Source: Rhodococcus sp. Leaf278 (lineage in GTDB: Bacteria > Actinomycetota > Actinomycetes > Mycobacteriales > Mycobacteriaceae). Taken from it: 64,000 bases of DNA. The translations under genes were made by a program, and so were the position numbers. The notes below the pieces were generated by a model, which worked only from the letters and a program-made list of their open reading frames with translations, ran no database searches and had not been told where the DNA came from. Location of the stretch: assembly GCF_001426085.1 (NCBI RefSeq), contig NZ_LMRR01000002.1:215038-279037 (forward strand), read 5' to 3'. Of this stretch, positions 31,201 to 35,100 are shown one piece after another (positions within the stretch are counted from its first letter, which is position 1; each line of letters opens with the position of its first letter).

Positions 31201-32009
31201 TACGCGAGATCGCTGGACGACAAGGGGGCGCGGCGGTCTTCGTCGGTCACCGGACCGGCGGAGTACCCGGACAGATCGACCGTATCCACCGACACGGTCT
31301 CGGTGGACGCCGGCACGTCGGGGTGATCGGTGGAGGTCGTGACCACCACCACCGGCTCGGCGATATCGAGGACGTACCCCAACCGATCGGACGGATGATC
31401 CGGGTCGAGTGGAACGTACGCGCCGCCGGCCGCGGTGATCGCGTACATGCCGATCAACAGGTCCATCGACCGTCGAATCGACAGGCCGACTCGGGCGTCC
31501 GGGCCGACACCGCGCTCGATCAGGTGGCGGGCCAACCGGTTCACCGAATCGGCGAACTGCGAGTACGTCAGCGTCTCGCCGTCGAACGTCAGGGCAGGTG
31601 CGTCCGGGGTCTGCTCGACCTGCTCGACGAAACGCCGATAGAGTGTGTCGGCCTCGGCAGAGCTCTGGGGCCCGGCCGCTGTGGACGAAGCGGCTGCCGT
31701 GTCGTGTCCCAACACCGACACCGCGTCGCCGATGAGACCCGCGACGACGGCGTCGAGGCCACCCTCGGTTGCCTCGATCAGACCGGGGACAGCGGTGGAC
31801 AGCACCACGGGCACCAGAGCGTCGGGTCCGAGGGCGCCGCCCATCGCCGTATCGAGGGCGGTGATCTCCGCATCCAGACCGACGTAGGTCAGCTCCACAC
31901 CGAGGTGCGTCAGCGCCACCCGATCCGGTTCGAGCGCACCGACGCTCCGAACCAGCCGAGGCAGGTCCTCGATAGTCGAAGAGCCACCGCCGAGGCCGCC
32001 TGACGCCAT
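10245..32009 (-). CDS. NRPS-B, giant non-ribosomal peptide synthetase with six A domains and one E domain
   Basis: This 7254-residue protein is the middle subunit of the assembly line. Domains in order: A-like N-terminal fragment (12-100); A-T (Ser666); C-A-T (Ser1725); C-A-T (Ser2777); C-A-T (Ser3846); C-A-T (Ser4910, in a GGDSI site) with an epimerisation domain (HHLVVDG at 5089-5095); C-A-T (Ser6449); a final C domain with HHISGDG; and a decayed A fragment (about 6975-7254). Pocket codes predict Ser, Ser, unknown, unknown, D-Ser, Ser. The C domain after E opens with [15 protein letters not shown], the form expected of a D-donor (DCL) condensation domain. All HHxxxDG motifs and carrier Ser residues are intact. 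The ATG at 32009 follows AGGAGG by nine bases. Beginning with A and ending with C plus an A remnant is unusual for an NRPS subunit. Confidence 0.96.
10248..11085 (-). other. Decayed, acidic A-domain fragment at the NRPS-B C-terminus
   Basis: Residues about 6975-7254. The first 80 align with normal A domains ([30 protein letters not shown]). After that the nucleotide-binding core is lost: where TSGSTGxPKG should be, the sequence reads [13 protein letters not shown], and everything beyond the middle of the A domain is missing. The end is rich in Asp/Glu ([18 protein letters not shown]). It cannot adenylate; a docking or scaffold role is inferred. Confidence 0.7.
11130..12510 (-). other. NRPS-B terminal C domain (serves module 13 in trans)
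   Basis: Complete C domain opening [15 protein letters not shown] with catalytic HHISGDG. It has no functional A domain behind it in this protein, so it must condense onto a carrier of the next subunit (NRPS-C, or possibly NRPS-D). Confidence 0.75.
12555..15735 (-). other. NRPS-B module 12 (DCL-type C-A-T), predicted Ser
   Basis: The C domain differs from all others: it opens [15 protein letters not shown], has [10 protein letters not shown], and matches the D-donor class that follows E domains. A pocket DVWHFSLVDK (Ser code). Carrier Ser6449. The A domain is close to that of module 11. Confidence 0.75.
15740..20315 (-). other. NRPS-B module 11 (C-A-T-E), predicted D-Ser
   Basis: C domain with HHIAADG; A pocket DVWHFSLVDK (Ser code). 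The carrier site is GGDSI (Ser4910) instead of the GGNSL found in every other module, as is usual for a carrier that works with an E domain. The E domain (about 4966-5423) has [13 protein letters not shown] and NYLGRVG. It is the only E domain of the A-B-C set. Confidence 0.8.
20355..23530 (-). other. NRPS-B module 10 (C-A-T), substrate unknown
   Basis: C domain with HHVSADG. A pocket D-L-W-H-L-I-L-V-S-K, identical to NRPS-A module 6, so residues 6 and 10 are probably the same amino acid. Carrier Ser3846. Confidence 0.7.
23560..26680 (-). other. NRPS-B module 9 (C-A-T), substrate unknown
   Basis: C domain with HHISADG. A pocket D-P-L-I-L-V-G-I-I-K, of the same family as the first A domains of NRPS-C and NRPS-D. 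I know of no matching substrate code. Carrier Ser2777. Confidence 0.7.
26720..29850 (-). other. NRPS-B module 8 (C-A-T), predicted Ser
   Basis: C domain with HHIAADG. A domain pocket DVWHFSLVDK (Ser code). Carrier Ser1725. The A domain is very similar along its length to NRPS-A module 3 (shared [18 protein letters not shown]), pointing to duplication or gene conversion between the two genes. Confidence 0.75.
29890..31650 (-). other. NRPS-B module 7 (A-T), predicted Ser, completed in trans by the last C domain of NRPS-A
   Basis: Pocket D-V-W-H-F-S-L-V-D-K fits the known serine code pattern DVWHxSLxDK. Carrier Ser666 in AVGGNS. The module has no C domain in this protein; the unpaired C domain ending NRPS-A supplies it. 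Confidence 0.75.
31710..31976 (-). other. NRPS-B N-terminal A-domain-like fragment, putative docking element
   Basis: Residues 12-100 resemble the first ~90 residues of an A domain (IEDLPRLV..., ELTY) but stop before any catalytic core motif. A complete A domain then starts near residue 120. The fragment aligns end to end with the C-terminal 93 residues of NRPS-A, about 36 identities in 90 with one gap by eye (shared MGGA, VPG and LS...VPG positions). Docking is my inference. Confidence 0.6.
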
Positions 32010-32101
32010 CTATCCATTCCTCCTGATCGAAAACCGTGCCGTGTCGTTCTCGTTGGCCCCGCCCGGTCGGCGGGGATACGTACTGCCGGGATCGGCACCG
32101 C
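32010..32101 (-). other. NRPS-A/NRPS-B intergenic spacer with GC hairpin
   Basis: 92 bases. CCCCGCC at 32057-32063 and GGCGGGG at 32069-32075 form a perfect 7-bp stem with a 5-base loop. On the transcribed strand no T-run follows, so it is not a classical intrinsic terminator. The strong AGGAGG ribosome site of NRPS-B lies between this stem and the ATG. Confidence 0.55.
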
Positions 32102-35100
32102 TCACGATGACGCGATCACCGACTCCGCACGTTCGATCAACGATGCCAGAGCCGTGGTGAGCCCTTGTGCACCGAGGGCCGGAAGTATGCCGGGCACCAG
32201 AGCGGACAATGTCACCGTCATGAGTGCCTGCGGCTTCATGGCACCGCCCATCGTCGCCGACGTCTGCGTCACCTTGTCGTTCATGGCGGCGAACGTCACC
32301 CGTGTCGACTCGTGCTCGAACGCAATCTCGTCCGGTGCCACGGCCGCGGCCTGCGCCACCAACTCGGGCAGGTCGTCGATCGTCTTCGGAGTGGCCTTGG
32401 GTGCGAACTCGGCCTTCTCGTCGTCGGTGAGAACGTCGATGGAGCCCACGGCCACCATCGGATCGGCCGTGACCGCCTCGAGGATCTTTCCGAAGCGCTC
32501 GGCGAAGATCGCCACACTTGTCTCGGTGAACAGCTCCGTCGCATAGGTGAACGTCGCCTCGATCGCAGCGAGTGATCCCGCCTCGTCGAACGACTCGACC
32601 GCGGTCAACTGCAGGTCGAACTTCGCCTGGTCGTCGCCGGCGTCGAGCGCCTCGATGCGCAGTCCTGGCAGCTCGAACGTTCCGGTGGTGTGGTTCTGGA
32701 ACGTCAGCATCACCTGGAACAACGGCGTGTATGCAGTGGACCTGGCCCGACCGAGCGCATCGACGAGACGCTCGAACGGCACGTCCGCGTTGCCGAACGC
32801 GGCGAGATCGGTCTCCTTGGCCTGCTGCAACAGATCCAGGAACGAATCGGCGCGCTGCACGCGGGTACGCAGAACCAGAGTGTTGACGAACATGCCGACC
32901 AGGTCGTCCAGTTTCTGCTCACCGCGGCCCGCGCTCGGCGTGCCGATGCTGATGTCGGTGGAGTTGCTCAGCCGCGAGAGCAGGACGGCGAACGCGCTGT
33001 GGACCACCATGAACGTGGTGGCCGCGTGCTCCCGCGCGATCTCCTCGATGCGACCGGCGACATCCCGACCGATGGTGAACCGATAGGCAGCGCCGTGCAT
33101 CGACGGCCGAGCCGGACGCGGTGAATCGGTCGGTAGTTCCAGCACTTCCGGAGCTCCGGCCAGTCGTTCGGTCCAGTAGGACAGCTGTCGGGCGAGCGCG
33201 CTGTCCGGGTCGGCCTCGCTGCCGAGTACCTCGCGCTGCCACATCGCGAAGTCGGCGTACTGGACGTCGAGCGGCTCCCACGTGGGCATGCCTCCGTCGA
33301 CGCGTGCCGTGTAGGCCACCATCACGTCACGGATGAGCGGGCCCATGGAGAAACCGTCGGCGGAAATATGGTGCGCGACAACGGCCAGTATGTGTTCGTC
33401 CGCACCGACCTCGAGCAGAGCTGCACGTACCGGCACTTCGGTCGTGACGTCGAAACCTGTCCCCAGGACTTCCATCAGGCGGGCAGGCATCGCGTCTCGG
33501 TCGACCTTCTCCGGGGTCAGGTCGACCCCGACGTCGGCGACCGATCCGATGAGTTGCATCGGACCGTCCGCGCCCTCCGGATACCGGGTCCGCAGAATCT
33601 CGTGTCGGGCCACCACGTCGTCGAACGCAGCCGCGAGAGCAGCTACATCGAGTTCGCCGGTCAGTCGGACCGCCACCGGGATGTTGTACGCGGCGGACTC
33701 CGGATCGACTCGGTTGATCGTCCACATTCGGTCCTGTGCCACCGAGAGCGGCAGGACCTCGGGCCGCGCGACCGAGGTCAGCTCCCGACGCGCTCCCCCG
33801 CCGACGAGGGGCGCGATGTGTGCTGCGAGGCCCTCGACCGTCGATGCGGTGAACACTGCGCGCACCGGAACCTGCGCATCGAGCGCCTGTCCGAGACGAG
33901 AGACCAACTGCGTTGCGATCAACGAGTTGCCGCCGAGCGCGAAGAAATCGTCGTCTCGTCCGGCGCGGTCGAGGCCGAGCAGATCGACGACGGTCTGCGC
34001 GACGATCTCCTCGACGGGCCCCACCGGTGCCCGGAACTCGGCTGTCGCGAACTCCGGGTTCGGAAGTGCCGCGCGATCGAGCTTGCCGTTGGCGTTGAGC
34101 GGAAGCCTTTCGAGCACGACGAACGCGGCCGGGATCATGTACGACGGCAGGACGCGCGCGAGATCCTTCTCGGCTGCCGCCGTATCGGGAGCCGATCCGT
34201 CGACACCTACCAGGTACGCGACCAACTGCTGACCGACCACCGAGTCCCGGTGGACCACGACGGCGGTTTCGGCGATCTGCGGCAGTGTGCGCACTGCGGC
34301 TTCGATCTCGCCGAGCTCGATCCGGAATCCCCGGATCTTGACCTGGAAGTCGACTCGGTCGACGTACTCGAGTCGTGCCCGTTCGGCACCCTCGGAATCG
34401 CCGTCCGCCCGACGCCACCGCACCAGGTCTCCGGTGCGGTACATCCGCTCGCCGTCCGCCGAGAACGGGTTCGCAACGAACCGTTCCGCAGTGAGATCCT
34501 CGCGGCCGAAGTATCCGCGTGCGAGCTGATCACCCGCGAGGTACAGCTCGCCCGTGATTCCCGCCGGAACCGGGTGCAGACGCGAATCGAGAACGTGGAC
34601 AGCAGTGTTCGCTTCCGGCACACCGATGGGGACGACAACCGTGTCGGCATCGGTCACCGGGTGAGCCGTCACCGATACAGCGGCCTCGGTCGGCCCGTAG
34701 AGGTTGTACAGCTCGGCGGTGTTCCGACGCCGGAAGTCCTGCGCCAGAGCAGCCGGAAGTGCTTCGCCGATGGCCAGCACACGACGCAAGGAGGGTCCGA
34801 GGGAACCGCCGGCGACAGTGGTCAGCATCGTCAACGTCGAGGGCACCAGATGCAGCGTCGTCACCTCGTGCTCGCGGATTGCCGCCAGGAGGTAATCCGG
34901 ATCGCGATGCGCGTCGGTAGCCGCGATGACGACTCGTCCGCCCGACGTCGGCTGAGACCAGAACTCCCACACCGAGAGGTCGAACGTTGCCGCCGTCTTC
35001 AGCAGCGACGCGTCCTCGCTGCCGAGGCCGTACTCCTCCCGCATCCACTCGAGTTGGTTGACGATGGCACCGTGGCTCACTGCGACGCCCTTGGGTCGCC

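Follow-up and report, generated by a model that had tools for sequence, protein, structure and literature searches.

The genome of Rhodococcus sp. Leaf278 contains, within a stretch of 64,000 nt (NZ_LMRR01000002.1, positions 215,038-279,037; here called the window), three consecutive nonribosomal peptide synthetase (NRPS) genes on the minus strand, which domain mapping delineated and which we named NRPS-A, NRPS-B, and NRPS-C. Since NRPS-A ends in a condensation (C) domain and NRPS-B begins with an adenylation (A) and a thiolation (T) domain, a single module is distributed over both proteins, with the cut between C and A. At this C/A break, each of the two proteins carries a fragment of 102 amino acids that resembles the first part of an A domain, here named fA (C-terminal end of NRPS-A) and fB (N-terminal end of NRPS-B). 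This pair of conserved, homologous pseudo-adenylation domains is real: its architecture, homology, conservation, purifying selection, and co-retention in genomes in which the two ends are unlinked are directly supported, as are two predicted small folds. Docking in trans is its best explanation and probably its function.

Two related A-domain fragments flank the break between NRPS-A and NRPS-B

The last C domain of NRPS-A (32408..33757, minus strand; residues 6424-6873; PF00668) is followed by fA (32105..32410, minus strand), which directly precedes the NRPS-A stop codon (32102-32104). After a spacer of 92 nt (32010..32101, minus strand), with an AGGAGG motif at about 32019-32024, 9 nt 5' of the NRPS-B ATG, translation resumes with fB (residues 1-102 of NRPS-B; 31704..32009, minus strand). 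The remaining half of this split module is the first genuine A domain of NRPS-B (residues 128-632; 30114..31628, minus strand), which is complete. When the two ends were compared by BLASTP, fA and fB aligned with 36/91 identities, 51/91 positives, and 1 gap (65 bits; E = 5e-20 in this single pairwise comparison), and the only copies in the genome that reached an E value of 1e-3 were fA and fB themselves. A preliminary description of the stretch had counted, by eye, about 36 identities in 90 with one gap and had placed A-domain-like pieces after the complete C domain of NRPS-A and before the real A domain of NRPS-B; the alignment and the domain mapping agree with both statements.

No Pfam match was obtained for fA or fB at an E value of ≤1. 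Searches of fA against NCBIfam gave weak matches (E = 0.004 to 0.011), three of four to A-domain or acyl-CoA-ligase families. Searched against PDB sequences, a profile built from 30 fragments matched A domains of NRPSs at profile positions ~6 to 75. LgrA was the best match; two of its A domains together gave the whole chain an E value of 7e-7, and the better of the single stretches had an E value of 0.13. The likeness to A domains is thus one of the first ~70 residues and, at 102 amino acids with these positions aligning, neither fragment represents a full AMP-binding fold (PF00501). The ATP-binding core motifs of A domains are situated beyond the segment that corresponds to fA and fB, which is consistent with the earlier remark that the fragments have no catalytic motifs. 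In a phylogenetic tree, 20 of 21 fB rows from different genera grouped together with support (99/99), and real A-domain starts formed another group (13 rows; 100/97), with fA and fB outside it. Since the fB group spans genera, fB is older than the genera sampled.

The pair recurs at C/A breaks in other genomes of the family

Within the genus of Leaf278, 35 of 37 genomes matched, some weakly via the part that is common to real A domains. In each of the 30 best loci, taken from 30 different genomes, a C-fA end faced an fB-A start. A scan of named genomes with the fA alignment yielded 66 loci in Rhodococcus, Rhodococcoides, Prescottella, Nocardia, and Antrihabitans; all 66 had a C-fA end, and in 56 the next gene carried fB. 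Cognate elements at the facing termini of consecutive subunits, as in a docking pair, were hence found in 56/66 named loci and in 30/30 of the best loci of the genus. The downstream protein started with fB-A-T-C in 53 of the 56 adjacent loci and with fB-A-T in L150, where the A match is split in two; L146 showed fB-A within the stretch scanned, and L105 showed fB alone on a frame-broken contig. The gap between fA stop and fB start did not exceed 169 nt in the 55 adjacent cases measured. All 10 loci without an adjacent fB belong to Nocardia. These counts bear out the suggestion that both fragments co-occur at C/A breaks in other genomes, and no related synthetase was seen that keeps the NRPS-A/NRPS-B break and lacks the fragments.

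Family-wide, at least 191 of 401 genomes matched at an E value of ≤1e-6 in a scan that scored 12 candidates per genome, some of the weak matches being real A-domain starts. Twenty loci fetched from 19 genomes of the family comprised 16 adjacent pairs, three fA ends with another gene next to them, and one fB only. The two loci examined in a divergent genus (g8) showed this layout as well, in a very divergent version that was recognized partly by eye. Genome G056 carried, in addition to its first pair, a divergent second one on a different contig. A scan of the order gave matches in 15 of 298 genomes. Five of these lie outside the family and are all weak (E = 2e-8 to 6e-7): four loci (L088 and L093-L095) show a normal C-A junction with no break, and the match of L091 overlaps a real A-domain start. 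Among 296 genomes of the class, four matched at an E value of ≤1e-9, all of them family members. In the 298 order and 296 class genomes, both of which include family members, we found no convincing fA or fB outside the family.

Two trivial origins of the pair were rejected. Chance similarity of fA and fB is ruled out by the E value of their alignment, albeit from one comparison, together with the recurrence, and a sequencing or annotation error that broke one gene is ruled out by the recurrence and by the ribosome-binding site of NRPS-B.

Both fragments are under purifying selection

Substitution rates were compared for 53 close, overlapping, and non-independent pairs drawn from 35 loci, as the sum of nonsynonymous rates (dN) divided by the sum of synonymous rates (dS). 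The ratio was 0.316 for fA and 0.282 for fB, versus 0.278 for the preceding C domain and 0.231 for the following A domain. For fA, dN was below dS in 53/53 pairs, and the same was true for fB. Both fragments are under purifying selection that is about as strong as on C, and with low ratios and dN < dS throughout they are not decaying scars.

fA and fB are co-retained when unlinked

In all 10 Nocardia genomes without an adjacent fB, a search with the fB alignment detected an fB-A-T-C gene on a different contig, and no NRPS domain was found in the ~4 kb fetched upstream of these unlinked fB genes. In a set of nine genomes, the two copies lay at most about 0.8 kb apart in six and were separated by 1.36 and 1.82 Mb in two one-contig genomes, in which the fB gene again started with fB-A-T; the ninth (G336) had a single strong copy, an fB. 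That both ends were kept after separation is the best evidence for joint action in trans. It is no proof, since initiation modules may also start with A-T, and a terminal C domain may release the product.

In the unlinked Nocardia loci, the gene next to C-fA specifies, in 10/10 cases (L112, L114, L115, L128, L131, L133, and L139-L142), an A*-A* protein, in which both A domains are degenerate and a T domain is lacking; such a gene also occurs in L217. Of the ten named loci, six also have a C-domain remnant in this protein, as does L217. The neighboring protein is seemingly a dead NRPS-like protein.

Probable docking in trans and its alternatives

We propose that fA and fB would be small, catalytically dead domains derived from the first part of an A domain and turned into docking domains for a split NRPS module, with C-fA on the upstream and fB-A-T on the downstream protein. 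By meeting fB in trans, fA would hold C of one protein against A-T of the next, and the split module would work with C and A on different chains. Both the mutual binding of fA and fB and the positioning of C against A by this contact are steps that we infer. The preliminary description had already suggested that paired folds hold C to A-T; recurrence, purifying selection, and persistence when unlinked speak for this idea, and the confident heterodimer that was to accompany it has so far not materialized.

Several observations weigh against docking in trans. At a second type of junction, found in eight loci of eight genomes (L167-L174), the start of the downstream protein carries fB and the upstream protein has no fA, seven of the eight upstream proteins ending directly after C and one in a T domain. 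The ordinary pair is also present in these genomes, which thus have one fA and two fB each. L082 and G336 likewise contain fB without an adjacent fA. In G001 (L175; C3:262000-274500), a single frame of 11,431 amino acids includes two unbroken internal C-f-A junctions with one fragment (f) each. The fragments are therefore not confined to breaks and, given the orphan fB at second-type junctions, the partnership of fA and fB is not strictly obligate. An fB or single f kept without a facing partner leaves room for roles in cis, for one fA shared by two fB proteins, and for later fusion. In addition, A-T at a protein start could also be a plain initiation module.

Structure prediction also failed to single out an interface. 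A single-stop junction of Rhodococcus zopfii, with TAG followed by ATG, allowed fA and fB to be folded with AlphaFold2 as one natural read-through chain with no invented linker. In this chain (pLDDT 83.8), each half was predicted with high confidence as a helix, a beta hairpin, and further helices, and the pTM of 0.49 is read as two folded parts in no confident arrangement. When C and most of A were included (1,099 residues), the two halves folded as before and the pTM was 0.45. The confident fA-fB heterodimer envisaged in the preliminary description thus came out negative or undecided. This is only weak evidence against docking, since the alignments were shallow (33 and 32 rows) and thinly paired, with nine paired read-through rows beside the query, one of them the query's own locus, and since both runs used one covalent chain rather than a true multimer run.

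Coevolution of fA and fB was not clearly singled out by the correlation of distance matrices or by mutual information over 66 pairs (effective number about 41). Of the six domain pairs compared by mutual information, fA-fB ranked first in the top-10 mean (8.04 versus 7.06 to 7.91). It does not stand out, as it held only a middle place in the top-50 mean (5.90; others, 5.42 to 6.52) and in couplings above 4 (7.7 per 1,000; others, 4.8 to 10.3). The partial distance correlation of fA-fB given C and A was 0.159, lower than that of fB-C (0.281), which in turn was lower than that of C-A (0.346); the fragments correlated with their own neighbors at 0.581 (fA-C) and 0.436 (fB-A). The p value of about 0.003 for r = 0.159, from 2,000 permutations, was not counted as support because labels were shuffled ignoring relatedness.

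By the likelihoods that we assign, the main rival of docking in trans is stabilization in cis, which we nevertheless hold to be rather unlikely: fA would cover the face of C that normally touches A, fB would stabilize the real A domain at its start, and the proteins would associate via other surfaces with no mutual contact of the fragments. Such caps would fit an AlphaFold2 prediction without a confident fA-fB arrangement, fA distances that track C and fB distances that track A more closely than fA and fB track each other, fB that lacks an fA at the second type of junction, and unbroken C-f-A chains with one f. Correlations between neighbors, however, are expected from contiguity alone, and caps in cis leave unexplained why the same family stands on both sides of the same break and why fA and fB were co-retained in all 10 genomes after unlinking.

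Quite improbable, in our judgment, is a binding site for a third partner, such as a further subunit, an MbtH-like protein, or the seemingly dead A*-A* protein beside some Nocardia C-fA genes. The next gene encodes the latter in every Nocardia locus without an adjacent fB, but the short distance from fA stop to fB start in the adjacent cases measured means that no gene lies between them there. A gene-fission scar, i.e., a tandem copy of an A-domain start left on both sides of a broken ancestral chain and now functionless, would agree with the existence of unbroken C-f-A chains and with four Rhodococcus genomes (L101-L104) in which both giant NRPS genes lie in one frame and a single TAG is directly followed by ATG, as fission would leave them. 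We consider it very unlikely, since it is largely refuted by purifying selection near that on C, and conservation of fB across genera and co-retention when unlinked also speak against it. In L101-L104, leaky read-through of the TAG would yield one chain.

If fA and fB indeed dock in trans, this natural, conserved split of a module at C/A would show how C and A cooperate without a covalent linker, and it would clearly exemplify how dead fragments of a catalytic domain gain an assembly role. Engineers would gain a cut site inside a module and a pair of tags that may work from unlinked genes. A further possibility, which we regard as doubtful, is a distinct class of megasynthase docking made of homologous pseudo-adenylation pairs that works at C/A breaks and across unlinked loci; where a genome has one fA but two fB-bearing subunits, a C-fA protein might then select either downstream partner, a natural branch point in the assembly line.

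The three synthetases and a second C/A break

NRPS-A (32102..53026, minus strand) comprises 6,974 amino acids in the listed frame, with a putative TTG start taken from the list of open reading frames (ORFs). Its domain order is C, six A-T units with C domains between them, a last C domain, and fA; no thioesterase was seen in NRPS-A by domain mapping. NRPS-B (10245..32009, minus strand; 7,254 amino acids) starts with fB-A-T-C, includes one epimerization-type region (TIGR01720), and ends in C-A*. NRPS-C (4265..10126, minus strand) likely starts with GTG, the ORF list giving a TTG at 10159, and has the layout A-T-C-A-T-thioesterase (PF00975) after a basic N-terminal tail. Complete A domains number six in NRPS-A, six in NRPS-B, and two in NRPS-C (14 in total), alongside one thioesterase and two C/A breaks.

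The second break lies between NRPS-B and NRPS-C. Here, the last C domain of NRPS-B is followed by A*, a degenerate N-terminal A subdomain of ~293 residues (10248..11126, minus strand), and NRPS-C opens with the basic tail and a complete A domain. C-A* was kept at this break in 8/8 relatives checked (L182-L189). Among the pairs listed (C-domain dS under 1.2), the dN/dS of A* was 0.13 to 0.35 at a dN of up to 0.44; A* is under purifying selection. The gene after C-A* has an NRPS-C-like start in seven of the eight relatives; in the exception, G033 (L188), the start resembles that of a further NRPS gene of the window (positions 1-4050, minus strand). With A* at the second break and A*-A* beside the C-fA genes of Nocardia, our data suggest that C/A breaks in this bacterial family repeatedly carry dead A-derived domains, with fA/fB as the most elaborate form.

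The NRPS gene at 1-4050 encodes a strongly basic N-terminal tail followed by A-T-C-A. Basic N-terminal tails also open NRPS-C and its relatives.

Comparison with known docking systems

As far as the docking classes are covered in the relevant passages of PMC9113145, COM, PAX, and beta-hairpin docking of NRPSs are described at E/C and PCP/C junctions. In the limited literature that we reached, we found no description of a homologous pair like fA and fB, and we do not claim that none is in print. COM (helix-hand) domains, which those passages report as identified at E/C junctions, share with fA and fB that terminal elements pair the subunits of an assembly line. They differ in that the fA/fB junction is C/A and both of its sides are related domains of ~100 residues. 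SLiM-beta-hairpin docking is similar in that the downstream subunit has a beta-containing domain at its N terminus; its upstream side, in the same passages (PMC9113145), is a short peptide, whereas fA is predicted to be a folded domain of ~100 amino acids that is homologous to fB.

Three-helix PAX docking at the PCP/C junction and the four-helix bundles at split modules of trans-AT polyketide synthases, both described in that part of PMC9113145, resemble fA/fB as true pairs of C- and N-terminal elements. They are short and all-helical; in each of fA and fB, a beta hairpin plus helices is predicted. The passages on them in PMC9113145 do not mention an origin from a catalytic domain. From the N-terminal subdomain of NRPS A domains (ANL family), fA and fB are distinguished by their truncation, by the missing Pfam match, and by their position outside the group of real A-domain starts. 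The fA/fB pair is probably a form of megasynthase docking.

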